DNA of 64,000 nt from Telopea speciosissima (lineage: Eukaryota; Streptophyta; Magnoliopsida; Proteales; Proteaceae), in assembly GCF_018873765.1 (NCBI RefSeq), contig NC_057918.1:13152862-13216861 (forward strand), read 5' to 3'. The notes below the pieces were generated by a model. The model saw nothing but the letters and a program-made list of their open reading frames with translations, searched no databases and was not told where the DNA came from. The first letter of the stretch is position 1, and the number at the start of each line of letters is the position of its first letter. The position numbers and the translations under genes are program-made. This document shows positions 16,867 to 63,245 of the stretch, piece after piece.

Positions 16867-19800
16867 ATGGGAACAAAAGTACAGTGTAAGAGCTACTTGC
16901 CAGGATATTACTCCATGAGGGACCTCAATGAGGATAACAACGGTAGCTGGCCTCTATATTATGAAGACAAAACCTTGAAGAGTGGACAGTACTACAATGG
17001 TTTCTTGCCAAGACCTTATACGGATGTATATCTGGGTTATGAGAAGGAAATGCTGAAGCAGACAATGCTTAAGCATGAAGCTATATTCCGGGGTCAGGTA
17101 TGTATGATATCAACATCTCATAATGAATTAATAACCATGACTTGCAATTCCTAGGATACACCATCTGGTTTTCTGATTTTTCAAGTTGAAAGGTGGATCA
17201 GACGGACTTGTGTTGTGCTCAAATCAAATTCACTCCATTTCTTGAGTTTCTTGAACACTTAAAATTTATTTGAATTTGTTATTGTCATCCAGGTCTATGA
17301 ACTTCATCGTATTTATAAGATACAACGAGACTTGATGGATGAACTTAGAAGAAAGGAGGTCAACAAATATACTTTATCTGTGGAGCCATCACAATCAAGT
17401 CTCTTTCCATCTCAAATGCCATCAGAAGTTGTCCAGAAAATGTGGCAAAACCCTACCATTAGACCATCTGTTTCAGGGACTGAAAACATGCAATCCACTT
17501 TCAGTTCTGTAAAGGAAAAGAACAAGCAAGTAGTAGGTCCTGTTCCAGCTCAAAATGGAGGCAGTTCAAATGAATGCAAGCTCCCAAGAAAAATGATTGA
17601 TCTCCAACTTCCAGCCGATGAGTATATCGATAGTGAAGAAGGGGAACCGACTGAAGAAGAGAAACTTTCTAATCACAGGGATGCACCTGAGAGTGATGTA
17701 AAGCTGTGTCTCGGCAATGGTGGTAACCCCAATCACACAGGATGTAGTTTGAGAGATGATTCATGTTTACGGAGCAGTCATGGATTGACTGACTTGAATG
17801 AGCCCATCCAGGTCGATGAAGCAACATCTTCGGCTTCCATTGATTTTTTGGGCCCTATAACCAGCCATGGGGAGGTTCATATTCGTGAGCTGCCTGGAAA
17901 ACCAAAATCAGGCATCCTAGAGATGCCAAAGGAATTTTTCCAAAATCCGCAGAAGGGAAGGGGTAATGGTATCTGCGCAAGCATTCTACATTTAGAGAGT
18001 GAAGGAAACAAACCAGAATGGCTATCCTATAATCCTGAAGCTGGTAAGGATTCTTCATTATTTACTTCAGTATCTCTTACTTAAATTCAGCGTCATTATT
18101 CTGATCTTGATTCCATTTGCAGTAAATTTAGTGGTTAGAGGCCTTGGTGCAACGGTAAGGTTGCTCTGTTGTGACCAAGAGGTCATGGGTTCGAGTCTGG
18201 AAACAGTCTCTACACGAAAGCAGGGGTAAGGCTGCATACATTATTACCCTCCCCAGACCCCACAGTGGCGGGAGCCTCGTGCACTGGGTACGCCCTTAGA
18301 GGTGTTGCATGAGTCTAATTTCCTCCAAATCTTTTTTTGTGGGCAATTATATTTTCAAACTGAAATAAGACAAAGAAGTAGAGAGCCATGGCTGCCAAAA
18401 CAATACCCGAAAATGGTATCTGATAACTACCAAAGAATTATGTGAAAATGATTAGCCAGGAAAGTGTTACCCTCATATTCTAGATTGTGAATCAGACTGC
18501 TTATATACTTGATAAGGAAATTATTCCCTGTTCACCTTCAAAAACTACATTTTGTCTTGTCTGTGTATTTTGTTTGTGTGTCTGTCCATGGGAAATATTT
18601 TTCTTTTGGACATTTCCAGGCTACGTTGAATGTAGGTGATGCTCTGTGGTGGCTGTGTATATTTCTTTACTATGTCTTCCACTTTTCAATTATTAGTCAG
18701 ACTCTAAATGTTTTTGGACATTTAAATATAAATATGAAGACCTTTCTTTGCCTTCTGGCAATGATATTAGGTCAAAGTTGCCATGCTGTAAAAGGGCCAG
18801 ATGATGGAACATGTGGACCTCTTTTATGCTGCCGCAGCAGCTGCCATCTGTAACCATGCCACCCCATCTGGATTTCTTTTCTCAGGAATGGTCCTGTGTT
18901 AGTTCAGTACTTCAGTTCTCCTTGGAGTTCATAGGCTGGTTTAGGGGACTGCTAAGCCAAAAATTGATCAGTTTTCAACTTTTATTTTAAAGATATAAGT
19001 GGACATAATACAAGTACATACAAGTAAAATTTCTTGTTGGACTTTTCTTGATTTTTATCTTCTCGTCTTCTTTTTCTAAATATATTTTTTGACATGATGA
19101 TCTTGTATTGCTATGCATCCGTTTACAGGGCTAAGTAGAAGTAATTCAAGTTCTTTACCTCAGAGTTTCGGTCCAAAAAAATTGCCCTTGGTTTCTGAGC
19201 CAGTACAAGTTGACCTTAAGAGATCTTATGAAATTCCAGCATTTCTCCGCTCTGATCAGATTTCAAGAGAGCCATGGAAAGAAATGGCAAATTGTAGTGC
19301 AGAAATCTCTGAAAGAAATACTACTACTGCTAATAACTATCCTGGATCAGTGGTGGCTTGTCATGTTCCTTGTCAATATCCAACCATCCATCAGTTTGAT
19401 ATGTCTCAACCACCATCAATTTCGTCTTGTAGAAAGCCGGTGAGTAGTCTGAGCCAGAATGCTGTAGCAGTTCAAGCACTTCCATGCATTGACCCATCTG
19501 CTTCATCAAGTAGGAGTTCCAATGTGTCTATCCAAGGCTATGGGATCTTCGGAGATAAATGGAGTCTCGACAGAAATTTGAGATTGAACCCTAGTTTTGG
19601 AAGTGAAGTGTCACACTGTAACGGCTTTTACCAGGGATCCCAGTTGGAGTCCAAACAGGTTAAGTTCTCTAAGGCTGGCTTTGATAATCTGAACTGTGGT
19701 GATGGCAATACTTCAGCCACTAAATATTCAGAAAACCATTCTGCATTGAAGTATTTTAAGGGTTCAGAATGCATGGATGTGAAGTCCACAAAGGATATGA

Positions 19801-21338
19801 ACCTGAATGTGGCACTTCCAATTGGCCTCCAAGATGGGGTGGTTCCCCAACAAAATCTTTCCATTGATGGAGGGGGAAAACATGAGGATCAACCTAGGGG
19901 CTTGCCTTGGCTCAGAGCAAAACCAGCTAGTAATGATGGGCCTGCCAGAGGAAAGGGAAGTTCATCTCATTTGAGATTGGGTTTCTTAGAAGAATCTTCC
20001 ATGCAGTCTCTGAACAAAAGTGAAACTAGAAGCAGTCCTGCTCTAAGTTTTATTCAGAATCTCATGTCAGCTTCATGTCACCATGATGCTGGGCCTAAGA
20101 AGACTGAGCCCGAAGGCTGTTCAAGTGATAAGAAGATCGTTGGGCTTCCCATTTTTGACAAGGTTCACATTTCCCACAACCATTCTTCTTTTTTAAGCTC
20201 CCCTGCCAAGTTCCGTCATGATGCGTCTGAGGTTGAAGACACTGACAATAGTGGGAAGTTGGGAGTGGTTCATATTGATTTGTCTCTTGATCCTAGATTC
20301 CAAGACTCAGGAGAGAAGTCAACCACAGAGGATGAGATTGTCAAGAAGGGACTCGATAACAACCGCACTAGCTCTAGGAATCACATTAATTTGAACACTT
20401 GTACAAATGTAGAAGAGATTCTATTGGAGTCTTCTGTTCCAAGAGACAAAATGAAAATTGCAGTTGAGATAGATTTGGAGGCCCCTCCGATTCTTGATAC
20501 CGAGGAGATTCCTCCTACGAGAGACGACTGTATAGGAGACCAACCTGAGGAACTTGTCCAGTCATCACATCATGAAGCTGGAGAGCATCATGAAGAACTT
20601 GCCAGGATAGCTGCAGAGAGTATACTCTCCATCTCATCAGCTACTGTTCGAGTGCAGTTGGAGCCATCCAATTGTCAACCACCAGAACCTTCTCTTGGAG
20701 ACTCCTTGTATTGGTTTGCAGAGGTTGTTACTTCAAACATGGGTGACCTTGAGAGTAAGGTTAGGGTAACTTCAAGGGTTGAGGGTGGTTGCGATCATGA
20801 GGGGTCATTTTCTGAGGGGGTTGATTATTTCGAGTCCATGACATTGCAGCTGATAGAAACCAAGGTGGAAGAGTACTGGTGTAGGCCTCAGGCTCCAGAG
20901 AATCTGAAGGAGGAAACAGTTGCAATTTCAAAGCCGAATCGACCTCGTAAGGGCCATGGGAGGAGGGGAAGGCAGCGAAGGGACTTTCAAAGGGACATCC
21001 TACCAGGTCTTGCTTCTCTCTCAAGGCATGAAGTGACAGAAGATCTCCAAACAATTGGAGGACTGATGCGAGCTACAGGTCGGCCTTGGGAGACAGGGTT
21101 GGCAAGGAGGAATGCTGCTAGAAATGGATGGGCAAGAGGGAGACGGCGTTCGAGGGGCCCTAGTCTCACAGTGGAAGCAACCAATGTCTGCCTACCTCCA
21201 GTGCAACCACCCATTAATAGTGAAGTAGGGCTGGATGAAAGGAACCTAACAGGGTGGGGGAAGACACCTAGACGACCCCGGCGACAGCGATGTCCAGCTG
21301 GTAATCCTCCTCCTATTCCTTCTTTAACCATAGTATAG
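16867..21338 (+). CDS. DUF863 family nuclear protein, three coding exons
   Basis: Coding exons are 16867-17097, 17293-18043 and 19129-21338, giving 1063 residues. Every junction has GT-AG ends and the reading phases agree. The N-terminus (MGTKVQCKSYLPGYYSMRDL) and the block EAIFRGQVYELHRIYKIQRD, which spans the first junction, are hallmarks of plant DUF863 proteins. A DLNEP motif lies near residue 244. The arginine-rich C-terminal block RRDFQRDILPGLASLSRHEV and what follows (about residues 940-1010) is the most conserved part of the family. The biochemical role is not established. The closest Arabidopsis relative I can recall is At1g69360. The start fits because it follows an acceptor by two bases. 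The second intron carries an Au SINE. Confidence 0.92.
18142..18295 (+). mobile_element. Au-type SINE in an intron of the DUF863 gene
   Basis: A full SINE body runs from CCTTGGTGCAACGGTAAGG through the B-box segment GGTCATGGGTTCGAGTC to GGGAGCCTCGTGCACTGGGT. It is flanked by TTAGAGG at 18135-18141 and 18296-18302. It lies in the second intron, same orientation as the gene, about 100 bases after the donor. It does not disturb the splice sites. Confidence 0.88.
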
Positions 21339-22217: not shown

Positions 22218-22228
22218 CCCTTTTTATC

Positions 22229-24872: not shown

Positions 24873-24922
24873 AGGACAGAATGGGGGCTAAGAGGACCAC
24901 ACTTCTTGGAAAACAAAAGTGT

Positions 24923-26160: not shown

Positions 26161-26166
26161 AAAAAG

Positions 26167-28302
26167 ATGAAACTCATCTCTCTATTGCAGAGACATGGCC
26201 TTCGCATCCAGAAATATCCTCTTCATTGGAGGTCTTTTTTTAGCAACTCTACCTTCGAACAACAACTAGAAACTCTCGATATCAATCGAACCATTGCTTC
26301 AGTTAATTCCATCTATTCGAACCCCTGTTTTTCTCTGTTGGGTCTCTGCAACACCCTCGGCTCTCTCAAGAAAATCCATGGTTTGCTCACCGTCCATGGT
26401 CTAACAGATGACCTTCTCTGCCAAACCAAATTAGTTAGCTTGTATGGTTTCTTCGGGGATGTCAAGTGCGCCCGCTCTGTCTTTGATCAAATAAGAGAAC
26501 CGGACCTTTACTCATGGAAGGTGATGATCAGATGGTATTTCTTGAGCGATTCCTATCCAGAGCTTATTCGGCTTTATACCCATATGAGACAATGCCTCAA
26601 AGAGCAAGACAACGTTGTTTTTAGCGTTGTGTTGAAGGCTTGCAGTGAACTGCATGATCTGGATGAAGGGAGAAAGCTTCACTGCCAGATTGTTAAATTT
26701 GGGAATCCTGATAGTTTTGTAATGACGGGTCTGGTGGATATGTATGCCAAGTGTGGAGAAATCGTATGTTCTCGTGCTGTGTTTGAAGAAATTCCCGACA
26801 GAAATGTTGTTTCTTGGACTTCAATGATCGCGGGCTATGTGCAGAATGATTGCCCAGAAGAAGCACTAGTGTTATTTAATCGCATGAGACAAGGGATGAT
26901 TGATGCTAACCAAGTCACCATGGGAAGCTTGCTTACGGCATGCACAAAGTTAGGTGCTCTGAATCAGGGAAAATGGGTCCACGGATTCATAATAAAAGAA
27001 GGTATCGTCATGAATTCATGCTTAGTAACTGCCCTGCTGAATATGTATGTAAAATGCGGGATGATCACTGATGCTCGTTCAACATTTGATGAGCTGCCTA
27101 TAGTTGATCTTGTCTCATGGACAGCAATGATTGTTGGATACACTCAGAGAAACTACCCGGATGAGGCATTAAGGCTATACACAGACAAGAAATGGGCTAG
27201 TCTCTTGCCCAACTCTGTTACTATTGCGAGTGTTCTTTCTGCATGTGGACAGTCAGGTAATTCAAATTTGGGAAGGTCAGTTCATGGCATTGGGATTAAA
27301 CTAGGCCTAGAAGATGGCACTGTGAGGAATGGTCTTATTGATATGTATGCAAAAGGCCATATGATTGGAGATGCTTATTACATATTCCGGACAGTTTCAG
27401 ACAAGGATGTGATTGCTTGGAATTCAATGATTACTGGGTATGCCCTGAATGGGTCTGCTCATGAAGCCATGACACTTTTTCACCAGATGAGATTGGATTT
27501 TGTCGCACCTGATGCAATCACAGTTGTTGGTGTCCTCTCTGCCTGTGCTTGTATGGGTTCCCTGCATTTAGGTTGCTCATTACATGCTTATGCTATAAAA
27601 GAAGGCTTTTTATCATCCAATGTACGTCTTGGCACTGCCCTTCTCAATTTCTATGCTAAATGTGGAGATGCAGGATCTGCTCGCAAAGTTTTTGACGGTA
27701 TGGAAGAGAAGAACACAGTGACATGGAGTGCGATGATGGGTGGATATGGCATGCATGGTGATGCCAGTGAGTCCCTCGCACTATTTACTGAAATGTTGAG
27801 TAAAAATGTGGAGCCCAACGAAGTAATCTTCACAAGCATTTTATCTGCTTGTAGCCATACAGGGATGGTTGGGGAAGGGTGGAGGTATTTCAATTCCATG
27901 TGTCGAGAGTATCAATTTGTGCCTTCCATGAAGCATTATGTTTGCATGGTTGATCTACTGGCTCGGGCTGGCAGGATAGAAGAAGCCTTGGCATTTATAG
28001 AGACAATGCCAGTTCAACCAGATGTCAGTGTTTTTGGAGCTTTACTCCATGGATGTAGACTCCATTCAAGGTTGGATCTTGGAGAGTTGGGAGTGAAGAA
28101 GATGCTGGAGTTGCAACCTGATAGTGCAGGGTACTATGTGCTCATCTCCAATTTCTATGCTTCAGATGGGAGGTGGAACAAGGCCAATGAAGTGAGGGAG
28201 TTAATGAAGCACAGAGGATTGAGCAAGTCACCAGGGTGTAGCCTAATGGAAATGGACAGTGGCAACCATTTCTCTGCCTTGAGAGTGGCATCTCTCTCAT
28301 AG
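26167..28302 (+). CDS. PLS/E-class pentatricopeptide repeat protein, organelle-targeted
   Basis: An intronless frame of 711 residues. The N-terminus (MKLISLLQRHGLRIQ, basic, no acidic residues early on) suits a mitochondrial presequence. From about residue 60 to 600 it is an array of PLS-type repeats with typical blocks such as GLVDMYAKCGEI, NVVSWTSMIAGYVQN and NTVTWSAMMGGYGMHG. It ends in an E domain (ALLHGCRLHSRLDLGE ... YYVLISNFYASDGRWN) and has no DYW domain. Such proteins bind specific organelle RNA sites, usually for C-to-U editing together with a partner deaminase; the target is unknown. The closest Arabidopsis relative I can recall is At2g03380, of similar layout. The chosen ATG is the first in frame. 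Confidence 0.92.
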   Translation: MKLISLLQRHGLRIQKYPLHWRSFFSNSTFEQQLETLDINRTIASVNSIYSNPCFSLLGLCNTLGSLKKIHGLLTVHGLTDDLLCQTKLVSLYGFFGDVKCARSVFDQIREPDLYSWKVMIRWYFLSDSYPELIRLYTHMRQCLKEQDNVVFSVVLKACSELHDLDEGRKLHCQIVKFGNPDSFVMTGLVDMYAKCGEIVCSRAVFEEIPDRNVVSWTSMIAGYVQNDCPEEALVLFNRMRQGMIDANQVTMGSLLTACTKLGALNQGKWVHGFIIKEGIVMNSCLVTALLNMYVKCGMITDARSTFDELPIVDLVSWTAMIVGYTQRNYPDEALRLYTDKKWASLLPNSVTIASVLSACGQSGNSNLGRSVHGIGIKLGLEDGTVRNGLIDMYAKGHMIGDAYYIFRTVSDKDVIAWNSMITGYALNGSAHEAMTLFHQMRLDFVAPDAITVVGVLSACACMGSLHLGCSLHAYAIKEGFLSSNVRLGTALLNFYAKCGDAGSARKVFDGMEEKNTVTWSAMMGGYGMHGDASESLALFTEMLSKNVEPNEVIFTSILSACSHTGMVGEGWRYFNSMCREYQFVPSMKHYVCMVDLLARAGRIEEALAFIETMPVQPDVSVFGALLHGCRLHSRLDLGELGVKKMLELQPDSAGYYVLISNFYASDGRWNKANEVRELMKHRGLSKSPGCSLMEMDSGNHFSALRVASLS

Positions 28303-28466: not shown

Positions 28467-28680
28467 AAGTCACCAAGAGGTAGCCTACTGGAAATGGATG
28501 AGTATGACAGCAACCATTTCTCTGCTTTGAAAATGGTATCTCTTCCCTAGCTAAATGATTGAGTGCAGATGGAGAGGATCACGGTTATAAGAGCTGAGAT
28601 GAGGTAGAAAGGCCCCTGATTTAAGTTTGTGGCTTCCATAAGATGATTGCTCTAATCAGGGGGCTGATGATGAATGAGTC
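28467..28680 (+). pseudogene. tandem partial duplicate of the PPR gene's 3' end
   Basis: From AAGTCACCAAGAGGTAGCC onward this repeats 28225-28430 (the last ~25 codons and the 3' flank of the PPR gene) at an offset of about 242 bp. It includes the GCAACCATTTCTCTGC block and the downstream TTTAAGT(C/T)TGTGGCT block. There is scattered divergence, and it cannot encode a PPR protein. Further weak echoes (ACATGCTTCAGA at about 28696 and 28882) suggest more rounds of duplication. Confidence 0.7.
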
Positions 28681-29094
28681 CCCCTTTGCCATGGACATGC
28701 TTCAGAATTAAACTGCATTCAAGGGGTGATGTCCATAGCTGGCATGTGTGGTTATGTTCCTGGAGTCAGGAGGATAAGAAGAGGTAATGGCTCCTGAAGC
28801 TGCAAATTTGTAGCCAAATGTAAGATACTTCATGATAGTCCAGATGGGTCATCATCAGTTGAATCTATTCTTTGCTGCAGACATGCTTCAGACTGCCCTT
28901 GATGGAGTGGTTTCCTCTACAATGCACATGCAGGAATTGACAGTTGATGGTTTATCAGCTTGCTTTGTGGGTTCTATATAGATGGTTAGTGTCATCGGAC
29001 TAGAAACATGCGGGAGGAAATTGAACACACCTGGGTTTATGTGTATAGACTGAGAGAATACATGCTAACAAAGCTCACTGTTGGAAAATCAATT

Positions 29095-29210
29095 ATTGTT
29101 GGTCTTTTGATATGTACGCAAAATGCCATGGTATTGGAGATGCTCAACACATATTCCAGACAGTTTCAGACAAGGGAGAGATTGCTTGGAATTCAATGAT
29201 TACTGGGTAA
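29095..29210 (+). pseudogene. PPR gene fragment
   Basis: About 110 bases closely match 27332-27446 within the PPR gene, from GGTCTT(A)TTGATATGTA(T/C)GC to GGAATTCAATGATTACTGGG. A single-base deletion near its left end and the lack of flanking PPR sequence show it is a dead fragment. It lies 0.8 kb downstream of the functional gene, so it probably remains from a local duplication. Confidence 0.75.
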
Positions 29211-30209
29211 GACTAGAATGGGATACCCCATATTTTTGGTAAACAACGAGTAACATATCCAAGTCATTTACTGCTTTATCTAGAGGTTGGTCTGAACTTG
29301 TAGATTCATCTGGTTGCAAATTTGAATGCTTAGGATTCTCCATTTCCAGATGCAGAATGTACTAAGCTATTCTATAAGAGTACCAGCTGGTATGCTATTC
29401 TTTCTACCACATTCAAAGACCTTCTCCTCCCATACGCAGTCATATAATAGCATGGAACCATTGATCTCCAGTATAGCCTGATGGTCTACAACATGTTGCA
29501 CATGAGAACATGTTTCTCAGTCACTTTCCTATTTATTACGATACTGTACTTCATTGAGGAAAGATAGATGTAAAAGTTATAATAGGATAGTACACCAGAA
29601 CTATTATACTAGTATAGTAAGTAAAAGTTAATAGTATTAAACAAAACCAGGACAGAGTATAGCAATGGTATTCAGTGATACCTGCCATGGCTTTCTTATT
29701 TTTTGTTATTTGTCAAGGTTTGGCAATCATTCAGTCTTTGTTGTTTCACAGGGTTGATGCCAGACAGGAATGGCGAGTCACTAATAGACGGGAGGACTGA
29801 GTTTCAGTGTTTCAAGCACATACCGTATCATAAATAGATGGCCCAGATTAGAAGATTCCATTTAAACGGATTCTGTGAAGGTTCAAAAGTTGGGGCGGTG
29901 TAGATACCATCGCGAATGTTCCTATTGGTACTGCACATCGAGCCTTGGTACGCCGTAGAGCACTGTATGATCCGTCTGATACAGCATGTCGCACATGCAG
30001 TTTTGCTGTCTTAAAGGTTCTAGTTGTGCGCCATCTATGAGCCTAAATCTAAGGAGTTCGGTTGCACGGCTGATAGTAAAGAGGACCATTCAGCCTCTCG
30101 TAGTCTAAGCTTTGACACTGCAACTTCTTACTCATGAGAATGGTGAGACAATATTAGATGAATGGAAGATCAGAATAAAATCTATTCCTGCTGTAACTAG
30201 TACAACCCC
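29211..30209. other. unassigned spacer
   Basis: No gene recognised. 29880-30100 is less AT-rich than its surroundings but no frame stays open. The sequence resumes at 36832 after the copia element. Confidence 0.5.
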
Positions 30210-30214
30210 TAAAG

Positions 30215-31236
30215 TGTTATACTAGACATATACTGTAAGACAAAGCAGATATACAGAAATAGAGAAATACCTGTTATCGCACACCAGTTGCAGAGTGAAA
30301 TGAACCAGAAAGGAAGAAGCACGGACAATCGAGTTGAGTCGTATCTGTAAGATACTTTCCTTAAGGATTTAGATGCCCCCTCTTCTGCAACGGGGTTGAC
30401 CTTGCACCTTACCCTCCAAGATAAATACAACTCCTAAACGTATAGGTTGCAGAACCTAATACGAGTACCAAGGATATCAAACGGCTATACAACCCTCTTA
30501 TTACTTAAATGAAAATACAGTATCTGTCTCTGGAACGGACTGTTGCAGGGACAATACGTCTCTGTTGTCTATATCAAAAACAGGCATGACATGGTGTATA
30601 TATATAATACTGGAGTACCCTTTCATGAAGGGATACATCCGTATGAATACAGGTGATATACGTACAGGGGTGTAACCCTTACATGGGAGGTGTGACCGTA
30701 TGTATACCTCCACGTACAGGGAGGGGGTGTAACTATTCATATATATGTACGAATAGACAAGTGTGGTTCAACCGTATAGATGAACCACGGGTGAACCAAA
30801 TCGAGTTTTAAACAAAACATTAAAACTCCTATAAGGTTTTGTCCACACCCACACCCACACCCCGACCTCGACCTCGGCCACGGCCGGCTTGGCTCGGCTC
30901 GGCGCGCGCGCGCGATTCAAAAGCACCCCAAGGACCCCCCACACACTAGAGAGTAGGGTGTCTTCCTCTCCAAAAGGCTCACACCTTAAGGAAACAATCC
31001 TATATATATACCCCTCAAGTAACTCTCCCACAACCAATGTGGGACTATTCTTGAGCTCAATTCTAGCCTCTTGCACACAAGAGAGTACAACCAATTTCAA
31101 ACAAAATAGAGGAGGGAAACAAAAGAAGAGGGAATGAAACAAAACACAATTTTGAAACTTTGACACACACTTGAAAAAGTGCTTTTTGAAACAAGTGCTT
31201 TGACCCAAAGTGCTTCTATAAAATAATAATACAACA
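30215..31236 (-). repeat. 3' LTR of the copia element
   Basis: A 1022 bp repeat beginning TGTTATACTAG and ending ATACAACA on the + strand (on the minus strand TGTTGTAT...TAACA). It is nearly identical to 35813-36826. The largest difference is in a CACACCC/CGACCTCGG low-complexity tract near 30845-30910. Confidence 0.95.
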
Positions 31237-31819
31237 ATTCCCCCACAAGTTTCAAAATAGTGATACATATCGAGTGATAAGTATATTAGACATAGTAGGA
31301 CACATCGTTGCAGGTGTCTTCAGGACTTGAACCTACACTAGGTCTGATGAACTACGCCACAAAGTACAGGTGAAGTCAGACTTCTTGAACCTTTCCTCAT
31401 CGGTGTAGCAGACTAGTTCACCAGCCACATCCTACTAGTCGACCGTTTGTGATATCCCTTTTATAAAGATGGACATTTTTTAACTGGCCTTGTCCCCTAT
31501 CCTGGTCTCATAGATGCTTAGAGAATTCGCCTATAAAATTCTCATCGGTAGGCGGCCTCACCTCCTACATCTATTTAGGTCAGTCCATAGTGTGCACCAC
31601 AGTTAACACACCCCCACTTTACATGAGATCCGACTAGATTAAGAGTCTATAAGACTCATCCTCCTTCCTTTGTGGTGGTACTACTTTTCCTATCTACCTA
31701 GAATGAGCAAAAAATGTAGTAGTACTAGACAGGTCATCCAGTGACTTCGTTTGTACCCTTTGAACCTAATTCAGGAATTTACCTTTTCACATAGGTTGGG
31801 TGTCCATCACATGACCTAT

Positions 31820-34800
31820 GTCACAGGCCTTAAGCTCATTCCCTTAGATGAATCATGAATTATTTTTGTAGGCAACGGTTTTGTGAAAACATCAGCTAAG
31901 TTGCTTTCAGATTTCACAAAATCAATAGCTATTGTTCCTTCATTAATATACTGCCGTACAAAATTATGTCTTAGGCGGATGTGGCGCTTCTTTCCATTGT
32001 ACATTTTATTCTTAGCTTTAGCTATTGCCGCTTGATTATCACAATGAAGTGATATCGAAGGCAATGGTTTTGGCCACAATGGAATATCTGCTATCAAAGT
32101 TCTGAGCCACTCTGCTTCAGTTCCCACCTTTTCCAAAGCTATAAACTCAGCTTCCATGGTGGATCCTGTACCACAGGATTGCTTTACCGATTTTCACGAA
32201 ATCGCTCCACCGCCTAGTGTGAAAACATATCCACTAGTTGCTAATGTTTCCTTGGTATCTGAAATCCAATTAGCATCACAATAGCCCTCTAACACGGCTG
32301 GTCTTCCACTGTAGTGAAGGCCATAGGCTATCGTTCCCTTTAAATATCGCAATAATCTTGTCATGGCATGCCAATGCTCTATACTTGGATTATGAGTGTA
32401 TTGACTCAATTTCCCAACTGCTAAAGCGATATCTGGTCTGGTGCAGTTCATTAGATATGTAACTGAACCAATGATTTGTGAGTATTTCTTTTGGGAGACA
32501 GGTTCCCCCAAATTCTTTTGTAAAAAACAATTAATGTCCAAAGGTGTTTTAACCGATGATAAATCATTATAACCATACTTCTTTAGTATGGTTTCAACAT
32601 AATGGGATTGGGATAATATAATCTCTTTTTCTTTTCTGATGATCTTAATTCCAAGAATTACATCAGCCTCCCCCATGTCCTTTGTATCAAACTTAGACAT
32701 TAAGAAACCTTTAGTTTGCTTTACAATGTCTAAACTCGTTCCCATTATCAACATGTCATCTACATAAAGTACGATGAACACACATTTGCCTTTATGGAAC
32801 TTACTATACAAGCACCTATCAGCATCATTTATGAGAAAACCATTCGATACAAGTACCGAATCAAGTTTTTCATGCCACTGTTTTGGAGCTTGTTTGAGTC
32901 CATAAAGTGATCTAACCAACTTACATACCTTGTGTTCTTGTCCAGGCACAACATAACCTTCAGGTTGCTTAATGTATATTTCTTCTACCAAGTCACCATT
33001 TAGAAACGCTGTTTTCACGTCCATTTGATGTATAACCAAATTATACATAGATGCAATAGCCATCATTACTCGTATAGTAGTTATTCTTGCTACTGGAGCA
33101 AATGTGTCAAAGTAATCTATATTCTTCTTTTGTCTAAAGCCTTTTACTACTAACCGGGCTTTAACCTTATCTAGTGATCCATCTGGTTTCAATTTCTTTT
33201 GAAATATCCACTTAGTGTCCAACACTTTGGAACCTTTAGGTAAGTCAACTAATATCCATGTGTGATTGGCTAAAATGGAATCTAGTTCACTTTTGATGGC
33301 CTCTTTCCAAAACACGGCATCTAAAGATGTCACCGCTTTTTATACGATAAAGGATCATTGTCTAAAAGATAGACAACCCAATCACCATCCGAAAAAGTAG
33401 TTTTCTTTTGCCTTTTACTTTTCCGTAATTGACTTGAATCACTAGATATAGGTGCAATATTCTTTGACACTTCTTGGCCAAAAGATGATACACTACTATC
33501 CACCTTCCCTTCTAATAGGTTAGACTTAAGAGGGAATACATTCTCAAAGAATTCTGCATCCCTTGATTCAATGATATCATTTTCGTCAAACACATCATCT
33601 ATGGTTTTAATAACCATAAATCGATATGCAGTACTGTGAGCTGCATATCCAACAAAAACACAATCACATGTCTTTGGTCCTAGTTTCCTTTTCTTTGGTT
33701 CTGGTATAGCCACTTTGGCTAGACAACCCCATACCCTTAAATGCTTTATGGTAGGTTTTCTTCCATACCATAATTCAAAGGGTAACAATCCGGTTTTCTT
33801 GTGCGGAACTCTATTTAAAATATAACATGCCGATAACATGGCATCCCCCCACATGTCTAGGGGTAACCCTGAGCTTATGAGCATTGAATTCATCATTTCC
33901 TTCAATGTTCGATTCTTCCTTTCTGCCACCCCATTAGACTCAGGTTGATAAGGGGCGGTGGTCTCATGAATAATACCATGGTCCTCACAAAACTGAGAAA
34001 GATTAGAGTATTCAGTACCTCTATCAGTTCTAAGCCTTTTCACTTTCCTCCCTAATTGATTTTCCACCTCTGCCTTATAGGATATAAAAGCATTACTTGC
34101 TTCATCCTTGGACTTAAGAAGGTAAACCATGGTAAATCTAGAGTGGTCATCTATGAATGTAACAACATATTTTTTACCTCCTCTAGATTCAAGTGACTTA
34201 TAGTCACAAAGATCACTATGCACCAAATCAAGAAGGCCACTTTGTCGTTCCATTGACCTATGTGGTCTTTTAGTGAATTTTGCCTCCACACATGTGGGGC
34301 ACTTTGTCAATGGTTGCTTAATATGATTGTCTATTAAGCCTTTCTTATGCATATAAGAAATATAAGATGCATTGCAGTGACCTAATCTACCATGCCATAA
34401 ATCATAATAATCAATAAAGTAAGCAGAAGAAGCACTAGGCTTTTCTTTTATTATCTCAGAAACACTTAGTACAAATAAACCATCGCTAAGATACCCCTTG
34501 CCCACAAATACATCATTTTTCAGAACTACAAGCTTGTCAGACTCAAAAAGTAACTTCATTCCTGCCTTGTTGAGAAGCGGCCCTGAAATAAGATTGCGTC
34601 TTATTTCCGGCACATGCAGCACATTGTCCAAAACAAGTGTCTTTCCTGAAGAGAGCTTCAAAGTAATTTTCCCTTTGCCGATAACCTTGGTTGACTGAGA
34701 GTTGCCCATATAGACCTTATCATCTAAAATAGAATAACTCAAAAAAGAGTTTCGGTCCCCACAGATGTGCCTCGTAGCACCTGTGTCTATTATCCAGTCA

Positions 34801-35780
34801 TTTGGTTTTTTCAACCAAAAATACTTCGGTTATCATTGCTGCAAAGACTTCCTCTTCAGCAAGATTGACTTTTGCCTTATCTGGCAAAACCTTCTTCTTG
34901 TTCCTGCAGTCTTTCTTGAAGTGACCCGGCTTGCCGCACATGAAGCAATTTCCTTTCTTCCTCTTTGAGTTTGAACTTTTCTGAACAGGATTGCCTTTCC
35001 TCTTAAGATTTGGTTTCTTCTCTGTTTCCACCAGATGGGCATTGGATCGAATGTATCCAATGGGCTTTTCACCTTTGTCTTTAATGCGGTTCCGTTCCTC
35101 TATTTTGATGCGAACTACCACCTGATCAAAAGACCAGTCCTTCCTCTTGTGTTTCATTGTAGTTTTGAAATCCTTCCAAGAGTCAGGTAGTTTATCAATT
35201 AAAGAACTCGTGACAAACAGATCTGGTAAAATCATGTTCTCTTTAGCCAAATTCCCAACCATAACCTGGAATCTGTCTACTTGAGAAGAGATGGTTTCAC
35301 CTTCAGTCATCTGGAAGTTCAGAAAATTTGACACCACATACTTCTTTAAGCCAGCATCTTCCAGAGTATATTTGTTGACCAAAGCATTCCAAATCATGTA
35401 GGCATGATCAAAGGAATTGTAAACATTATACAATTCATTCGATAGAGCATTCAGAATCCTGTTCTTGCATTGAAAGTCTGCTTCGATCCAAGCAAGCCTC
35501 TTCATATCGAGATCAATATCCTCACTATCCGGAGGCTTGGGATCAGTCAATGCAAACGCCACCCCTATTTGCGTTAATGCAAATAGCATCATCTGCTTCC
35601 ACCGTTTAAAATTCTGCCCGGTGAACTGTGCTATCTTATCAAACTCTGAGACTATTCTCAGTTTCTCCATACTCGGTTGTATGGTAGCAGCAGTATTTTG
35701 GGCAGCGGCAGCAGTAGGGGGAAGGTCCACAGTAGCAGTAGTATCCACAGTATTATTCCCAGCCGTAGTCTTACATAGAA
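31820..35780 (-). mobile_element. copia internal region: gag, protease, integrase, RT, RNase H
   Basis: Limits and part positions are approximate. Gag (about 34.9-35.7 kb) has a UBN2-type core and one CCHC knuckle, CFMCGKPGHFKKDC. Protease (about 34.75-34.8 kb) has WIIDTGATRHIC. The pre-integrase zinc region (HGRLGHCN) and integrase core (about 33.9-34.45 kb) show the expected D, D and E surroundings, including LRTDRGTEY and NGVAERKNRT. Reverse transcriptase (about 32.5-33.25 kb) has [13 protein letters not shown] and the catalytic LYVDDML. RNase H (about 31.85-32.15 kb) has HCDNQAAIAKAKN. The region is fossil: its parts are in several frames with about three interruptions. The lineage within Ty1/copia was not settled. 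Confidence 0.9.
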
Positions 35781-35812
35781 AATAAGCCAAATAAGATCTA
35801 AATCCTTAAGAT

Positions 35813-36826: not shown

Positions 36827-36831
36827 TAAAG

Positions 36832-43325: not shown

Positions 43326-43405
43326 AAAAAAAAAAAACAAAACGTACTTTTGATCAAGAGATCACGTTGGTAATTTTTTGGACACAGGAAATAAAGCATC
43401 CCACC

Positions 43406-46400: not shown

Positions 46401-49400
46401 TTGAGCTATTGTGGTCTGCGATTCAGAGGGATCTTCTCTGTGCTCTACAATTTGGTCTGTTTTTGTGATTGATTTGGTTGCTGATCTTCTATCTTTATTG
46501 CTACAATGGGTGACTCTAAACCTTCCATGGACAATGTTAATGTCCAAATTACTTCCATTAAGTTGAATGGTGCTTCCAATTATCTGCTCTAGGCACAAGC
46601 TGTCAAGGTATATATTAATGCCAAAGGTAATTTGGAATATCAATTGTCATCTTCACCATCAACAGATAATGTAAGACACAGAGAGTGGATGAGTGAGAAT
46701 GATACTTTACTTGTTTGGCTATGGAATAGCATGGAACCCTCAGTGGCTGCTAATTCCATGTCTCCAACACTGCAAAAGGTGTCTGAGATGATTTAAAGGA
46801 GAGCTTTTCCCAAGACAAGAACATATTCCGAGTGTATGACCTTCATGAAAATATTTTTTCTTTCAAACAGAACGGAAAATCTGTGTGTGAATATTATAGT
46901 GTGGGAAGAGTTAAATGTTTATCAACCACTCTCTGATGATCTTGAAATATTAAAATCTCAACGTGCATAATTTCCTCTGTGGTTTGGTTATGAATTGCAG
47001 CCCATTAAGAGCCAGATGCTTACAGGTGAGAAAGTTCCCTCTATGAATGAGGCCTTTTGTCGTATCCAATGGATTCTCTCCTTTCCTTGCTAAATCTGAA
47101 ACCTCCTCTTTGACTAAGGATAACTCTGCATTTGTTACTAGTAGCAATGGTCGTGGACGTGACTTAGGTTTTACTGTTTGAGGCTGAGCTTCAGGGGGAG
47201 GAAGAGGACATGGTGCTAGTGGTCGAGGAGGACAACAGCCTCATTTGCCTTTACGCTAGTGTTTTCATTGTGGTAAGCCCATACTGTTTGCTGAGGCAAA
47301 GAATGCCACAAGTACAATTTGTGAATATTAATTGCTTTTATGTTTTGGTGATTACATTCTATTTGTGTGTGAAAAAAGCTATTATGCTCTTCCAAGTGCT
47401 TTAATGAATATATAGTTTCCAAGCATTGAAAAGCAAGTCCTTGAGTCCAAGCACTAAACTAGAAGATACCAAGTCAAGCCATCCATGATGATTCAAGCAA
47501 CTCAAGCCAAGATTGGAAGATTTACTTTAGTTTGCTAGAATGTATCCCAGGTGTTGTTTTTTATCTTGTAATATCTCGATGATCCTAAGATGTAATTATC
47601 CCAAGTGCTCAAGCTCAGCTAATCACCTATGGACTTCATCTAGAAAACCTAAGATAGGTGGTTCATAGTGTAAACTAAGTCAAACTAGACCTAAAAGGTT
47701 AGCATCTATCATAAACCTTGACTTAGCCCTTTTGGTAACCTGAATAGACCTTATATTGGTTCACTTGGCATGACATGAGAGCCTACTGAAAAATATGTCC
47801 AACTGATGTGCTTCAATTTGTGAAAAATATCATTGACAGCACTGGCGGTCGATTAAGTGGCCGACCGGCTCTAAGTAGAGTGGACGATTGGTACATGATC
47901 CACTGGTTACTGTGAGCACCCTTATGCAAAAGGACGTTAGATCGGTAAGTACGAGAGGTATTTCTTCGCAGTCTACATGGCAGCGACCGACTGACTCCGG
48001 ATAGTGGTTGACCAGAGTTAAAAAATTAGATCCATTTGAAATCATAACAGTTAATTTTATTACTGTTGGAATCTGATCTATAAATAGTGGAATAGCCTGA
48101 GGTTCAATAAGAGACTTTTGAGCAAATACGTGAAAACTCTATCGAGCTAAAAAATGTGAAAAATTCCACCACCTATGTGCTTCAACTTGCAAATCTAATG
48201 AGCTATTGAGTAGAGAGGCTGAGAAGAAAAGAGCCACAACTTGCAAATCTAAACAGCCATTGAGCATGAGCCACTGAGCAAAGGGGATCAACACATGTGC
48301 TAGAACTTGCTAAGCTACCTGTAAATTAGATAACTTGTGTTTTGGCTTTGGGCCATTGTGAATCACTTTTTAGTGATTGTGTGGCGAAGGGTATTGAGGC
48401 CCTGAATCTTAGTGAGGTGTTTCTCCTACGTTGCAAGGAGAGTGTGGTTGGGTGTTTCTCCAACCCTACAAGGAGATTGTGGTTGATCTTGGGGAGATCA
48501 TTGTTGGAATCTGGTTTAAATATTCGAATAGTCTGAGTTTCAATAAAAGACTTTTAGGAAAATACGTGGAAACTCTATTAAGCTAGAAACGTGAAAAATT
48601 CCACTGCCTATGTGCTTCAACTTGCAAATCTAAATGACTTTAAATAGTGGAATAGTCTGAGTTTCAATAAGAGACTTTTAGTCAAATATGTGGAAACTCT
48701 ATCAGGTTAAAAACGTGAAAAATTCCACCACCTATGTGCTTCAACTTGCAAATCCAACGAGCTATTGAGTAAAGAGACTAAGAAGAAAATAGCTACAACT
48801 TGCAAATTTAAACAGCCATTGAGCATGAGCCACTGAGCAAAGGGATCAACACAAGTGCTAGAACTTGTAAATCTACCTATAAAAGAGGTAACTTGTGTTT
48901 TGGCCTTTGAACCATTGTGAATTACTTTTTAGTGATTGTGTGGGAAAGGATATTGAGGCCTTGAATCTTAGTGAGGAATTTCTCCTACGTTGCAAAGAGA
49001 GTGTGGTTGGGTGTTTCTCCAACCCTGCAAGGAGACTGTGGTTGATCTCGGGGAGATCATTGTTGGAATCTGGTGTTTAAATAGTCGAATAGTCTGAGTT
49101 TCAATAAGAGAGTTTTAGGCAAATACATGGAGACTCTATCGGGCTAAAAACATGAAAAATTCCTCCGCCTATGTGCTTCAACTTGCAAATCTAAATGAGC
49201 TATTGAGCAAAGAGGCTGAGAAGAAAAGAGCTACAACTTGCAAATCCAAACAGCTGGTAGAGAGGTAATTACATTCTTTCTATCGGTAGTTCTGTTTTCC
49301 CCATTCTCTCATCTTCTTGTTCTCTCTTTTTTATTGTTTCTTGTATAGGGCTGGTTTTTCTTCTTCTTTGATGTTGTCACAAAAAATATGCCGGAAGTCA

Positions 49401-50902
49401 GAAGTAGATAATCCACATGATATGCTACCAAACCAACAACATTATAAAAAGATACTGTAGAAGCGTACGAAATTGCACATTTTGTTCTCTAAAATTGAAG
49501 CATCTTCCCTTGAGTAATGGCTTCCTATTTTGTATATAATGGAAGGGGAAAAGGGTGGGCACGCCGCCAAAGTGCCCAGCATGTGTCATCCTCTCTCCTC
49601 CCCCTTTGTAAAAGACCCCTTGCCCTCTTGTGTCCAGCCCTGAGATTGGTGAATACCGCTAGCTTACCAAAAGCTGGCGGCATGCCCAACCCTTTCCTAT
49701 AATGAAATGCTATCAGAATGTGTTTTCTAGCATAAAAGTTCAATGACATTACCTCAGTAAGCTTGTTTCTCAATTGTTGTGCTATGTCGTACTGCTCCAT
49801 ATTCAGAGCACACTGTCATCTCAGAACAGCCAAATAAACAAAAATTAGAGATAACAATACAAACTGTTGTAGAGAAGAAGAATCAGAGACTGGTATCGTT
49901 GAAAGCTAATGAGTACAACAGAAAGTTGAAGTGGGAATTGTTGCAAAGATAAACACTTTTTGAGAAGGAACCACTGAGTAATTCTAACTATTTTGTTGCT
50001 ACAAAGAGAAACCTGGCCAATGGAGGCATGCTTCATTTGTTTTTATAATACCTGCATCTGCCTAAGAGACCAGAAGACATTGAATGAATCTGTTTTTCCT
50101 ATTTAAAGCATGTTCTTGTGAAATCATTGTTGTTGATAACTAATCAACAAAAAAAGGTGCAAGCTTATTTTGTCAGTATTGAACAGAGTACAAGTAATCC
50201 ACGTATAGGGGCAGAACCCATCACCCCAACTAGGAGATGTCATAACCAACAAGTGAACAAAAAAATACGATCACATAAGTACACATATAATCGGCGTCAT
50301 TTGGAAGGCCACTCTTTCTGACCATCCAAACTAACTGATTGATTGATGACAGTAGTCAGATTTGATTAATTTTTAGCCCTTTTATAGGTCCAATCCCCAC
50401 CAGTACCCAAACCATGGACAATCCCGAAGTTCTACCACACTGATAGATAAGGCTGCCTATTTAAAAGGCAGTTATTGATCCAATCAGAAGGCCATGCAGC
50501 ATGAACAGGAAAACTTGCTAAGCCATTTTGGCAAAGAAAAAACTAAGTCAAGGAACTCGGAAGTCAAACCTGTACACGAGTTGCTAAATCAAGCTGGAAA
50601 AAGAATATCAATATGTCCTCATTCGCACTCTCACTGCGTTCTGAACTTGCATCCATCCCCTCTTCACTCTTATTAAACAGCCAACCAGCTTCAACCCTCA
50701 ACCCCCTTTGTTGTGATCTATTGAGCTGACTTGTTGGGAATGATTTGAGGACATGCTGGCACCAGAGGGATTGTCTTTCAATCATAGAGGCCCTATGGAT
50801 TTTGGTTGTAAACCTGTATTCACTTCTCCACAGAGCAGAGGAGCCATAAATCCCACCATTTCCAGAAGTTGTCAAAGTGCTCACAGATGTACTCTGTACC
50901 AT
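43406..50902 (-). CDS. CLPF: CLPF: chloroplast Clp protease adaptor, eight coding exons
   Basis: Coding exons in gene order: 50902-50570, 49812-49753, 45379-45285, 45036-44864, 44534-44422, 44130-44085, 43682-43642, 43564-43406. All have GT-AG borders, the phases agree, and they give 339 residues. Residues 1-60 look like a plastid transit peptide. The conserved block GLRVEAGWLF ... ERSESANEDILIFFFQLDLA follows at about 75-110. A UVR motif (ADMQKAIETENYALAAELRD) lies at about 164-200, and a YccV/HspQ-like domain (YAFRLGQKVKHKIFG, VVCGMDPLC, HPYISFLFYGMDTAGD) runs to near the end. In Arabidopsis, CLPF (At2g03390) works with ClpS1 to hand substrates to the stromal ClpPRT protease. The start matches the family N-terminus MVQS. 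Confidence 0.93.
45697..49340 (+). mobile_element. degraded Ty1/copia fossil, Ale-like
   Basis: The left part begins TGTGAGATATGTTAAG and includes AGAGAGGTAATTCCATTC at 45828, repeated as AGAGAGGTAATTACATTC near 49259. Parts of both LTRs therefore seem to remain. A gag-like stretch at about 46.5-46.8 kb starts with wording typical of Ale/Retrofit gag (ITSIKLNGASNYLL, LLVWLWNSMEPS). A knuckle-like remnant follows near 47.26 kb. Protease, integrase and reverse transcriptase were not recognised. It is broken in many places and clearly old. It lies antisense to CLPF within an intron. Confidence 0.7.
48064..49254 (+). repeat. ~430 bp tandem repeat with partial units
   Basis: Units begin at about 48064, 48502 (short, to 48636), 48640 and 49061 (partial, to 49254). 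Three start TGTTGGAATCTG. Shared blocks include GTGGAATAGTCTGAGTTTCA, CACCTATGTGCTTCAACTTG, AACTTGTGTTTTGGC and GGGTGTTTCTCCAACCCT. The TATAAATAG-like word and TGTTGG start resemble an LTR, so these may be tandem LTR copies. Two units carry a similar open frame of 62-65 codons, which alone is not evidence of a gene. Confidence 0.8.
49541..49697. mobile_element. MITE close to a CLPF splice donor
   Basis: The left end GGAAGGGGAAAAGGGTGGGC and the inverse of the right end GGAAAGGGTTGGGC pair, continuing to ACGCCGCC / ATGCCGCC. TATAAT flanks it at 49535-49540 and 49698-49703. It lies about 55 bp inside the CLPF intron from the donor of the second coding exon. Confidence 0.65.
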
Positions 50903-54567: not shown

Positions 54568-57500
54568 ATGGAAGTGCATCAACAACAACACGAAGAGCAC
54601 AAGCTCGATAACTATTATGACTTGGTAATCCTCGGCGCCTCTGGTTTTACAGGCAAATACGTAGTACGGGAAGCTCTGAAATTCCTCAACACCCCTTCAT
54701 CTCCCCTCAAAACCATAGCCCTCGCTGGCCGGAATCTTGGCAAATTGGATGATGCTCTGAAATGGGCAGCTCACCCGGCATCGCCTCCTTCCATTCCCCT
54801 CATCAAAACCGACATCTCCGATCCTGCTTCGCTTCGAGAGCTTTGCATCAAAACCAAGCTCGTCCTGAACTGCGTCGGCCCCTTTCGCCTTTACGGAGAG
54901 CCCGTCGTCTCTACTTGCGTCGAAATGGGTTGCGATTACCTGGACATATGTGGTGAGCCTGAATTCATGGAAAGAATGGAGGTACTGTACCACGACAAGG
55001 CAGCGGAGAAGGGCTCCTTGGTGGTTTCCGCATGTGGGTTTGATTCGATTCCGGCGGAACTGGGTTTGATGTTCAATTCTAGGCAGTGGGAACAACCGTC
55101 GATACCGAACAGGGTTGAGGCATATGTGAGTTTAGAGTCGGACATGAGGATAGTTGGGAATTTCGGGACCTTTGAGTCGGCCGTTTTGGGTGTAGCCAAC
55201 ATGAAGCAGTTGCAGGAATTGCGTAGGTCTAGACCTAGAAGAGCTAGGCCGGTGGTAAGACCTTTTCTTCTGTCTCCTTTATTTCCTGTGTTTCAACTTT
55301 CAATGTGAAATGTTACTGTTGACTGGACTTCTCTGAGAGTATTGAAACATGTCAGATAACATCATGCCATGGATAGAGCACAAACCTTTTTATGTGCAGA
55401 CCTGCAGCTTGTGAAGCTTGGCATTATTAGCCCTTTTCAGATTTGGATTCTTAGTCTTCTTATTGCATTGCCATACTCATTCCTTTTGTGAAGGAATCTG
55501 TATAACATTGGGTAGATATACAAGTGAAGCAATAATTATTGAAAGAAAGAATGGAGGGGCTTCTGCTTTTGAAACCCTCTTTGCATGTCTGTATGGACAT
55601 GGGTTTTCTTGATTTCCTTTGATGCTTCATATGGGTTGCTTTGTGGTATGATTTTACCCTCTCGACATTTCCATGGTTTTTCTGTTGCTTCCTTCGTTAT
55701 GCAACTGTAAACTCATGTTACTTACTGATCTAAAAGAGCACTCCCATATATTTGATTCTGAATTCTCTTTCCATCTTGGAAATATACTGGTTCATTACAC
55801 TGGAGAATTTTCTTTTCTGCGAGCAGGTGTCATTTGTCCTTTCTTTGTCCATACTAATAGTTGCAGATTTTGAGTTATGGGTATCAGATTATATTCATTA
55901 GTGTTGTCATGGAGATTTTGTTTTGATTATTTCAGATGATGTGTGGCCTGTATGTCAGTTTTTTGGGAGGGGGATTGGTTGTTGCCTCCTGGACCCATTT
56001 TCTTGTCTCTTTTTGTTTGAATCGAAGGTAGTATTTGTGCATTACACTAGGAAGAATGTGTATTAGTGCATTGCCTCTAGCCCTACTGGTTTCTTAGCAA
56101 CATTGTCAACAATGCAACCAGTCCAATTCTTTGTTACAGTGAGAGGCAATTTCGCATGTGGCTGTCAATGGCACACAACCTATTTATAAGCATTGAAAAC
56201 TTGAACGTGAACATGGCTTGTTTATTGACCTTGTAGCATGAACATGACACCTCTGCCTGTTTATTAAATGGTTCATGTTCTGTTCAACATATTCAACATG
56301 CCAAGGTGATTAACTCAACATGACCTTTTCGAGTAGCCTGTAAAACTTGACAGCCTAAATTGATTCACACCATTTAAAAAAATATATATATAACTAACCT
56401 CAGTACTATTAAAATTTTATAAGGTAAAGAGGGGTTGAGAGGGTTATGGACCCTCAACAGCTGAACCCAAACATGACCCTTTCAGAAAAAGGGTTAGGCA
56501 TTTTGAGCTGAACTGGACCCAAACATGATTATGGCTGACCTGAACCTGCTATCCATTTGTTATATTCATGTCAAGTTAGTAACTTGTGTCAGGAATCGCC
56601 ACCCCAAGCTGAACTTTTATTTTCGGTTTCTAATTACCCTTTTTTTTTTCTGGAATGTTATATTATGGTGTATTTAGAAATATCTTAGTTCAGGAGGCAA
56701 TGAGGTATACTTAACATCAGGGTGGAAGCAGTTGTCTAGGTCTCCGGCAATGGACAAGGATCAAGAACCATTGTCTGATGGATCCCAGATTAGAGATTTC
56801 TAAGGTCTGCTCCTCACATAATTTCAATCAGTTGTAAAAATGAGGTAGACATGAGATTTCAAAGGTCCGCTCCTCACATAATTTCAATCAGTTGTAAAAA
56901 CAAGACAGCAATCATGGTACAAAATCCCATAGTTCAAAACTGAGGAACTGAGAACAGGATGTCTCTAGCTGCGCTAAATAATATGAACTGGAGCAATCTT
57001 TTGTAAGTATATTTGTTATGAGTACAGTACAAGAAGAGGAAGAAAAATTCTTCGTACTTCTATTGTAACATACAAAAGGAATCCATTAATGGTTTAGGTT
57101 AAGTTGGTACTCACCATCAACTTTATCCTCTATTTATGTAACTTAGTCATAATGGGCATTCACATCTGATGTTAAAAGCTGTTTTTCTGCAGATTCCTGG
57201 GCCCCCTCCTCCGAATGGACCAACAATAGATCACCAGAAGACACTTGGCCTTTGGGCTGTTAAATTACCATCAGCAGACTCCATTGTTGTACGAAGAACA
57301 CTTGCAATTTTAAAGGATAATCCACATGGCCTTCCTGGGGTTGATGAAACTGAGGAGCAGATGGAGTATAGAAAGAACTTCTGGTCAAAGGTGAAGCCAA
57401 CCCATTTTGGGGTGAAGATAAGCTCCAAGTCTCTGTTGGGCGTTCTACGATTTATCACTGTTGGAATCTCCATCGGTCTCTTTGGAAGAACTGCTTTTGG

Positions 57501-57885
57501 GAGGTGGCTACTCTTAAAGTTTCCTTCTGTTTTCAGCCTTGGGTGGTTTAGGAAGAAGGGTCCGACTGAGGAAGAAGTTGAAAGTGCTACATTCAAAATG
57601 TGGTTCATTGGACATGGTTACAGTGATGCTAGTCTTGCATCACAGGGAAACAGAAAACCAGATACAGAGATAATTACCAGAGTTATGGGACCAGAAGTCG
57701 GATACTTGACCACTCCTATTATCTTAATTCAGTGCGCTCTTCTTGTATTAAACAAGCGTAACGACATGCCCAAAGGAGGTGTCTTCTCCCCTGGGATTGT
57801 TTTTGGCCCAACTGATCTCCAGGAACGACTACAGCGACATGGGATATCCTTCGATATCATATCAAAGAATGCTGTTCCTGTCTAG
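54568..57885 (+). CDS. saccharopine dehydrogenase-like oxidoreductase, two exons
   Basis: Exons 54568-55254 and 57193-57885 join in phase 0 (GT-AG) to give 459 residues. The N-terminus has the Rossmann nucleotide-binding fingerprint YDLVILGASGFTGKYVVREA. It is followed by AGRNLGKLD, the NCVGPFRLYGEPVV block and SACGFDSIPAELG, all typical of the family of Arabidopsis At5g39410. Near residue 310-340 a hydrophobic segment precedes RWLLLKFPSVFSLGWF, and ESATFKMWFIGHGYS follows. Plant members are named after saccharopine dehydrogenase and annotated mitochondrial, but their substrate is not known. An in-frame ATG at 54460 would add 36 residues; the later ATG fits the family length better. The 1.9 kb intron carries no clear repeat. 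Confidence 0.93.
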
Positions 57886-63000: not shown

Positions 63001-63245
63001 TCATTTCTGCAATTTCGGAAACATTAAGAGAATTTGCTTTAGCGAGATATCTAGAATGAAGTGAGTATTCTTCAGCAGCAGATAAAGGAGGGCCACCAAG
63101 GTCACCAAACCCAAGCAATTTAGCACAATTAAAATTGTTCTGTGCTTGAGCAGCTTTCTCCCACTGTTCCTTGCGCCTCTGATCAGGATCTTTAATTAAG
63201 GACATAAATGCAGGATCCAGATAGGAATCCAAATAGGATGAATTC
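60038..63245 (-). CDS. macro / CRAL-TRIO protein (GDAP2-like), 3' seven exons
   Basis: Exons in gene order: 63245-62994, 62717-62609, 62319-62252, 61260-61191, 61117-61043, 60952-60861 and 60113-60038. They encode the C-terminal 246 residues with consistent phases. The linker SSYLDSYLDPAFMSLIKDPD leads into a CRAL-TRIO (Sec14-like) domain: RPVMVVVGAHFLLRCLDLER, YTIVYLHSAASLQ, WMRRLQQILGRKHQRNLHAI, and the end VDPRTKYVYQRP. Relatives such as human GDAP2 and Arabidopsis At1g69340 carry a macro (ADP-ribose-binding) domain ahead of this. Those exons are not seen before 64000 and should lie to the right. CRAL-TRIO domains usually bind lipids; the role here is unknown. Two introns contain MITEs. 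Confidence 0.9.
60172..60473. mobile_element. MITE related to the one at 5978-6262
   Basis: The left end TTGTTCCATCTAGTCACA then AAATAAAGGG, and the inverse of the right end CTGTCTGGTTGCAAGAGAA then ATAAAGGG, match each other loosely and match the 6.0 kb element. It is in the last intron of the GDAP2-like gene. Confidence 0.55.
61720..62079. mobile_element. 360 bp MITE in an intron of the GDAP2-like gene
   Basis: The terminal inverted repeats TTTAGGAAAGGATCTCC (61720) and the inverse of TTTAGGAAAGAATCTCC (62079) differ at one position. Extra TTTAGGAAAT sequence just outside the right end hints at a nested or repeated terminus. The interior is not protein-coding. A fragment of the same family lies at 24465-24560. 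Confidence 0.7.

Follow-up and report, generated by a model that had tools for sequence, protein, structure and literature searches.

A gene neighbourhood of Telopea speciosissima that occurs in two collinear copies and is probably an old angiosperm block, later fractionated

The 64,000-nucleotide stretch of the Telopea speciosissima genome analyzed here (C3:13152862-13216861; hereafter the window) carries six genes encoding, from left to right, a DUF863 protein, an E-class pentatricopeptide repeat (PPR) protein, a DYW-class PPR protein, a CLPF-like protein, an oxidoreductase, and a protein with macro and CRAL-TRIO domains. We consider it very likely, at a probability of roughly 0.85, that an old angiosperm gene neighbourhood, later fractionated, is present in this genome as two duplicates, the window being one and the other lying on C8. 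Given this second copy and the markers found in the flanks, the order of the six genes and their neighbours is more than chance. An initial annotation had listed the six genes in this order, which Pfam domains and the spliced proteins bear out at the family level. The block extent that it gave (16867..63245) is right at its start, the ATG of the DUF863 gene at 16867, but not at its end, because the last gene continues as far as ~74.2 kb. Gene identities are family-level assignments (Pfam, NCBIfam), and Arabidopsis gene numbers were taken from print or assumed rather than derived from sequence comparison. The six genes, in window coordinates, are as follows.

16867..21338, forward strand: DUF863 (HDIP family) gene, PF05904 on two exons (E 1.1e-44 and 9.9e-208)
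26167..28302, forward strand: E-class PPR gene (At2g03380-like in the initial annotation), PPR repeats and E motif without a DYW match
38421..41042, reverse strand: PPR-DYW gene (At1g69350-like in the initial annotation), E motif and DYW_deaminase (E 3.7e-32)
43421..50902, reverse strand: CLPF-like gene (AT2G03390), YccV-like and UVR in the spliced protein, UVR exon at 44859-45167
54568..57885, forward strand: saccharopine-dehydrogenase-like oxidoreductase gene (At5g39410-like in the initial annotation), PF03435
60041..64000 and on to ~74.2 kb, reverse strand: 3' part of the macro/CRAL-TRIO gene, CRAL_TRIO_2, with the Macro exon past the window at ~71.6-72.0 kb

The PPR-DYW protein also has an E+ match below cut-off. 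PF03435 lies on the N-terminal exon of the oxidoreductase gene; its second exon is without a Pfam match, and NCBIfam gave no match for this gene. The combination of YccV-like and UVR domains is the make-up of CLPF, which is given as AT2G03390 in PMC8889267.

Read along C3, and extended into both flanks, the order in Mb is a two-domain (group I) WRKY gene at 13.000 (At2g03340), MinE at 13.070 (At1g69390), DUF538 at 13.087 (At2g03350), DUF863 at 13.170 (At1g69360), the E-class PPR gene at 13.179 (At2g03380), the DYW-class PPR gene at 13.191 (At1g69350), CLPF at 13.196-13.204 (At2g03390), the oxidoreductase at 13.207 (At5g39410), the macro gene at 13.213-13.227 (At1g69340), and a one-domain WRKY gene at 13.615 (At1g69310). 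If these identities hold, four At2g03 genes alternate with five At1g69 genes, the At2g03 numbers only rising and the At1g69 numbers only falling. By order alone, and again if the identities hold, both series would be monotone in 1 of 720 cases, a figure that serves as a guide only because the list was partly assembled post hoc. The single ancestral neighbourhood that had been proposed is nonetheless well supported, since the interleaving continues left of the window (group I WRKY, MinE, DUF538), both series are monotone, and the order on C8 matches.

Two of the Arabidopsis identities, those of At1g69350 as a DYW-class PPR gene and of At5g39410 as an oxidoreductase gene, are assumed here, as is the equation of HDIP with DUF863, a name absent from the HDIP paper. 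The others are in print: besides CLPF, the trio HDIP1, HDIP2, and HDIP3 is given as AT1G69360, AT1G26620, and AT1G13940 (PMC12170880), At2g03380 is described as a PPR gene of the E subgroup, and At1g69340 is among the accessions listed for SEC14-type proteins. It is nevertheless conceivable, albeit unlikely, that the identities are wrong and that the orthology of one or both PPR genes with At2g03380 and At1g69350 is mistaken, given that PPR families are large and that the assignments stand at the family level. At1g69350 may also be listed as an E-class gene lacking DYW, which would be unlike the protein in the window. The E-class PPR gene, however, lies between the group I WRKY and DUF538 genes and CLPF, as At2g03380 lies between At2g03340/At2g03350 and At2g03390, and, with the PPR genes set aside, MinE, DUF863, and the macro gene still alternate with WRKY, DUF538, and CLPF.

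The second copy emerged from searches with each of the six proteins, in part or whole, against 822.9 Mb (1287 contigs) of the same genome. The 745 aa exon of DUF863 has one close match, at C8:18178221-18180410 (79%), and two weak ones elsewhere; the oxidoreductase has one close copy, on C8, and three short fragments elsewhere; and a 120 aa CRAL-TRIO piece, used as the query for the macro gene, has one second match, from C8:18150783 (93-97%). The genes shared by the two copies, among them DUF863, the oxidoreductase, and macro/CRAL-TRIO, have the same order on C8, inverted. When 104 kb of C3 was compared directly with 200 kb of C8, collinear DNA extended on the window scale from ~6.3 kb to 87 kb, facing C8 from 18.193 to 18.099 Mb in descending coordinates; some repeats match off this line, and matches beyond its left end do not clearly follow it. 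For this comparison we relied on the blastn parts, as unfiltered tblastx gave many weak linked fragments. The C8 features are as follows.

C8:18178221-18182127, reverse strand: second DUF863 copy, 745 aa exon matched at 79% aa
C8:18155240-18158596, reverse strand: second oxidoreductase copy, 82-83%
from ~C8:18145996, forward strand: second macro/CRAL-TRIO copy, exon matches
C8:18159588-18160173 and 18167011-18167219: relic of the DYW-class PPR gene in its proper place, with residues ~542-725 at 18159592-18160173 and residues 723-803 at 18167013-18167219, both pieces with stops

Synonymous divergence (Ks) between C3 and C8, calculated by a simple NG86 procedure with Jukes-Cantor correction over six chosen stretches from three genes, is 0.28-0.44 (pooled, 0.33). 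The two copies thus combine collinear order on two chromosomes with similar Ks over the kept pairs, and single genes have been lost with a relic left behind: the DYW-class PPR gene has decayed and the CLPF interval has collapsed. Duplication and loss are therefore visible directly in the C3/C8 pair, the losses mostly on C8. The relic is broken by an insert of ~6.8 kb (C8:18160174-18167012) that has the nine bases ATAATATAT, A/T only, at both ends, weakly similar inverted ends, and an open reading frame (ORF) of STOP2-type zinc-finger kind. We take it to resemble a Mutator-like element with a captured gene piece, as a possible candidate. The 14.8 kb at 39750-54555, which holds CLPF, corresponds to <1 kb on C8. 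Neither the E-class PPR gene nor CLPF has left a trace in the 200 kb of C8 compared, MinE has no C8 match in the whole-genome search, and a second CLPF copy was found nowhere in the genome, with all nine candidates scored. Kept, decayed, and missing genes, three fates of duplicates, thus stand side by side in the C8 copy. Much of the arrangement predates the genome's own duplication, given that C8 has, in matching order, DUF863, the oxidoreductase, the macro gene, DUF538, both WRKY types, and the PPR-DYW relic.

Although the collinear blocks are plainly seen, their origin in a whole-genome event is the most likely reading of their scale. A local segmental duplication, separate from any whole-genome duplication, is a quite improbable source of the C8 copy; the comparison was limited to one region, and PMC13080361 calls the evidence for ancient whole-genome duplication limited in the related Eidothea genome, but the WRKY pairs, if true pairs, give the block a length of ~0.6 Mb on C3 against ~0.9 Mb on C8.

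Five marker families were searched in the flanks, and three of them (MinE, DUF538, WRKY) agree with the block, whereas two (Mo25, MADS) do not. Placements of MinE and Mo25 were written before the search, and that of DUF538 later, also before its search; the choice of WRKY and MADS followed an earlier idea and preceded the written predictions. MinE has a single match in the genome, at C3:13070087-13070290, left of DUF863 as predicted for At1g69390; the Pfam MinE match is above cut-off and the NCBIfam MinE matches are below. We take arc12 to be MinE. At1g69390 is given as the arc12 locus in PMC3728212. DUF538 genes lie at C3:13087211 and at C8:18335761, each within its predicted interval (chance expectation ~0.02 for 40 clusters), and At2g03350 is described as a DUF538 gene (PMC6693388). 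The WRKY search, in which the best 150 of 201 candidates were scored, placed two-domain (group I) genes on the left (C3:13.000-13.005 and C8:18.42 Mb) and one-domain genes on the right (C3:13.615 and C8:17.517 Mb). Counted by eye, the two-domain protein from C3 shares 62/71 residues with WRKY4 and 59/71 with WRKY33, while by score a longer WRKY33 chain comes first, so that a closer relationship to WRKY4 than to WRKY33 is suggestive only. The likeness of the one-domain protein to WRKY57 is assumed, and no WRKY57-named chain is among its 13 matches. In print, WRKY3 is AT2G03340, WRKY4 is AT1G13960, and WRKY57 is AT1G69310.

Several points weigh against a conserved and later fractionated neighbourhood. 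Mo25 (At2g03410), predicted on the right, has no match on C3 or C8 among matches that number 21 elsewhere. There is no AP1/SEP4-type MADS pair near the block: a single MADS match on C3 (12193916) lies 0.96 Mb to the left, and on C8 the closest one (15967440) is on the opposite side at a distance of 2.2 Mb. The WRKY result lacked a written prediction, and the WRKY and DUF538 genes of C8 were assigned from their family and location rather than by sequence comparison with those of C3. To the right of the macro gene lie a UDP-glycosyltransferase gene (L031:6863-8353) and a SpoU methylase gene (L032:2568-5252), the DNA of which is also matched on C8 (two places, ~66%, for the glycosyltransferase); neither is known to be a neighbour of At1g69340 or At2g03390. 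Finally, the presence of the E-class PPR gene and CLPF before the duplication rests on Arabidopsis and not on C8, because C8 holds no trace of them, and frequent movement of PPR genes has been reported (PMC1892557).

Loss after duplication is seen within the C3/C8 pair, by absences and by a relic; the reciprocal loss between exactly two Arabidopsis segments that had been postulated is probably too simple a picture. The polyploid pairing of At1g13960 with At2g03340 is in print (PMC3850935, which cites Blanc et al.), and the protein of At1g13940, a locus two gene numbers from At1g13960, forms a trio with those of At1g69360 and At1g26620. Taken together, the pair and the HDIP trio therefore suggest that at least four Arabidopsis segments (At1g13, At1g26, At1g69, and At2g03) are involved and seem to derive from this neighbourhood. 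At1g69 and At2g03 were probably joined by an older event than At1g13 and At2g03; no directly printed At1g69/At2g03 pair turned up in our literature searches, none of which was aimed at block maps. According to PMC3334584, the gamma triplication falls mostly after Ranunculales had separated from the core eudicots; either gamma or a later round may have produced the division seen here between Arabidopsis segments. If At5g39410 is the orthologue of the oxidoreductase gene, it is the displaced copy, because the block already had that gene when C3 and C8 separated.

The neighbourhood that we favour would originally have had roughly the order WRKY3/4-like, MinE, DUF538, DUF863, E-class PPR, DYW-class PPR, CLPF, oxidoreductase, macro/CRAL-TRIO, and WRKY57-like. 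A duplication in a Proteaceae-type lineage, most likely of the whole genome, would have produced C3 and C8, with C3 retaining the fuller set and C8 losing the E-class PPR gene, CLPF, MinE, and a working DYW-class PPR gene by decay and, presumably, deletion. In the Arabidopsis line, more polyploidy would have raised the number of copies to at least four, with different survivors on At1g69, At2g03, At1g13, and At1g26, as the gene numbers suggest. That the Arabidopsis arrangement is instead the old one, two neighbourhoods having been mixed by insertion in this lineage before its own duplication, is very improbable despite the description of PPR genes as nomadic (PMC1892557) and despite a mosaic at 28.5-30.2 kb showing that pieces do move here, since it needs several separate insertions that preserve the order of both series, the shared genes have the same order on C8, and one gene of the HDIP/DUF863 trio lies on the At1g13 segment, at a distance of two gene numbers from WRKY4.

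This mosaic, and the element inserted in it, occupy the interval between the two PPR genes.

28467..30213, no strand assigned: mosaic of broken copies, with pieces of the E-class PPR gene (28467-28544, 29109-29258) and of the macro interval (29285-29774, 30134-30213)
30214..36826, reverse strand: Ty1/copia retrotransposon inserted in the mosaic, with ORFs and long terminal repeats (LTRs)

The stretch 27338-27453 is repeated at 29107-29222 with 86% identity. The second part of the mosaic matches C8:18147129-18149559, and the source of its macro-interval copy sits ~36-43 kb to the right. The copia insertion is recent, because two 300-base stretches of its LTRs are 99% and 100% identical; on C8 the sequences matching its flanks (30134-30213 and 36827-36885) are contiguous, overlapping by 4 bases.

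Elsewhere in the genome, both PPR genes of the window have distant family members, the best-scoring at 40% identity for the E-class gene (123 matches; best 63 of 1208 candidates) and 38% for the DYW-class gene (110 matches; best 52 of 1215 candidates). No close second copy of the E-class gene was found, and within the 200 kb of C8 there are distant PPR matches only. Next to the relic on C8 lies an intact 804 aa PPR frame (C8:18167423-18169834) that has an E motif and no counterpart in the window. We rejected it as a diverged copy of either PPR gene of the window, its identity of 33-35% comparing with 79-97% for the kept pairs; it may instead have arrived on C8. C3 therefore has an E-class and a DYW-class PPR gene where C8 has an unrelated E-class gene and a DYW-class gene broken by a transposon-like insert. 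Because C3 and C8 carry non-orthologous PPR sets between DUF863 and the oxidoreductase, and C3 carries broken PPR pieces, the middle of the block might be a site of PPR turnover, with repeated gain and loss while the neighbours stay fixed, although we regard this as unlikely. In the C8 flank, two similar incomplete PPR frames (C8:18218746-18219747 and C8:18236457-18237494) lie ~18 kb apart, near a DUF179 gene and frames that look ankyrin-like by eye.

Long conserved stretches shared with C8 also lie left of DUF863, at 8449-16334, possibly a regulatory region or one of non-coding transcripts. One of them is the following.

10532..11895, no strand assigned: conserved, apparently non-coding stretch, 82% to C8 over 1301 sites

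A coding gene at 10.5-11.9 kb was rejected, as 14 of 18 gaps are not multiples of three, and Rfam at gathering cut-offs gave no match for 10532..11895. Local repeat arrays occur in the intergenic DNA at 14247-16002 (copies ~0.88 kb apart) and in a CLPF intron at 48078-49254 (copies ~0.56 kb apart).

The process seen here, duplication followed by fractionation of a block, is textbook and well known, and the C3/C8 pair is a clear example of it. Core eudicot genomes show synteny with less reduplicated outgroups such as grape, Nelumbo, and Amborella; the window resembles these in interleaving genes that lie on separate Arabidopsis segments, a comparison made here from one genome and gene numbers rather than from a whole-genome alignment. 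A block of this kind from an early-branching eudicot puts genes that seem scattered in Arabidopsis into order, which lets position guide the assignment of orthologues for PPR and chloroplast genes. As in the fractionated plant blocks left by whole-genome duplication, of which At1g13960/At2g03340 is a printed case, there are two collinear segments with partial gene sets, here with a relic between kept genes; the copies described here differ in stemming from a duplication in a Proteales-type genome, with Ks of ~0.33 and loss mostly on C8. PPR genes have been described as having no conserved location (PMC1892557), to which the unrelated intact E-class PPR gene beside the ruined DYW-class gene on C8 corresponds; in contrast to such nomadic genes, the DYW-class PPR gene stayed put, having been in place before the duplication.

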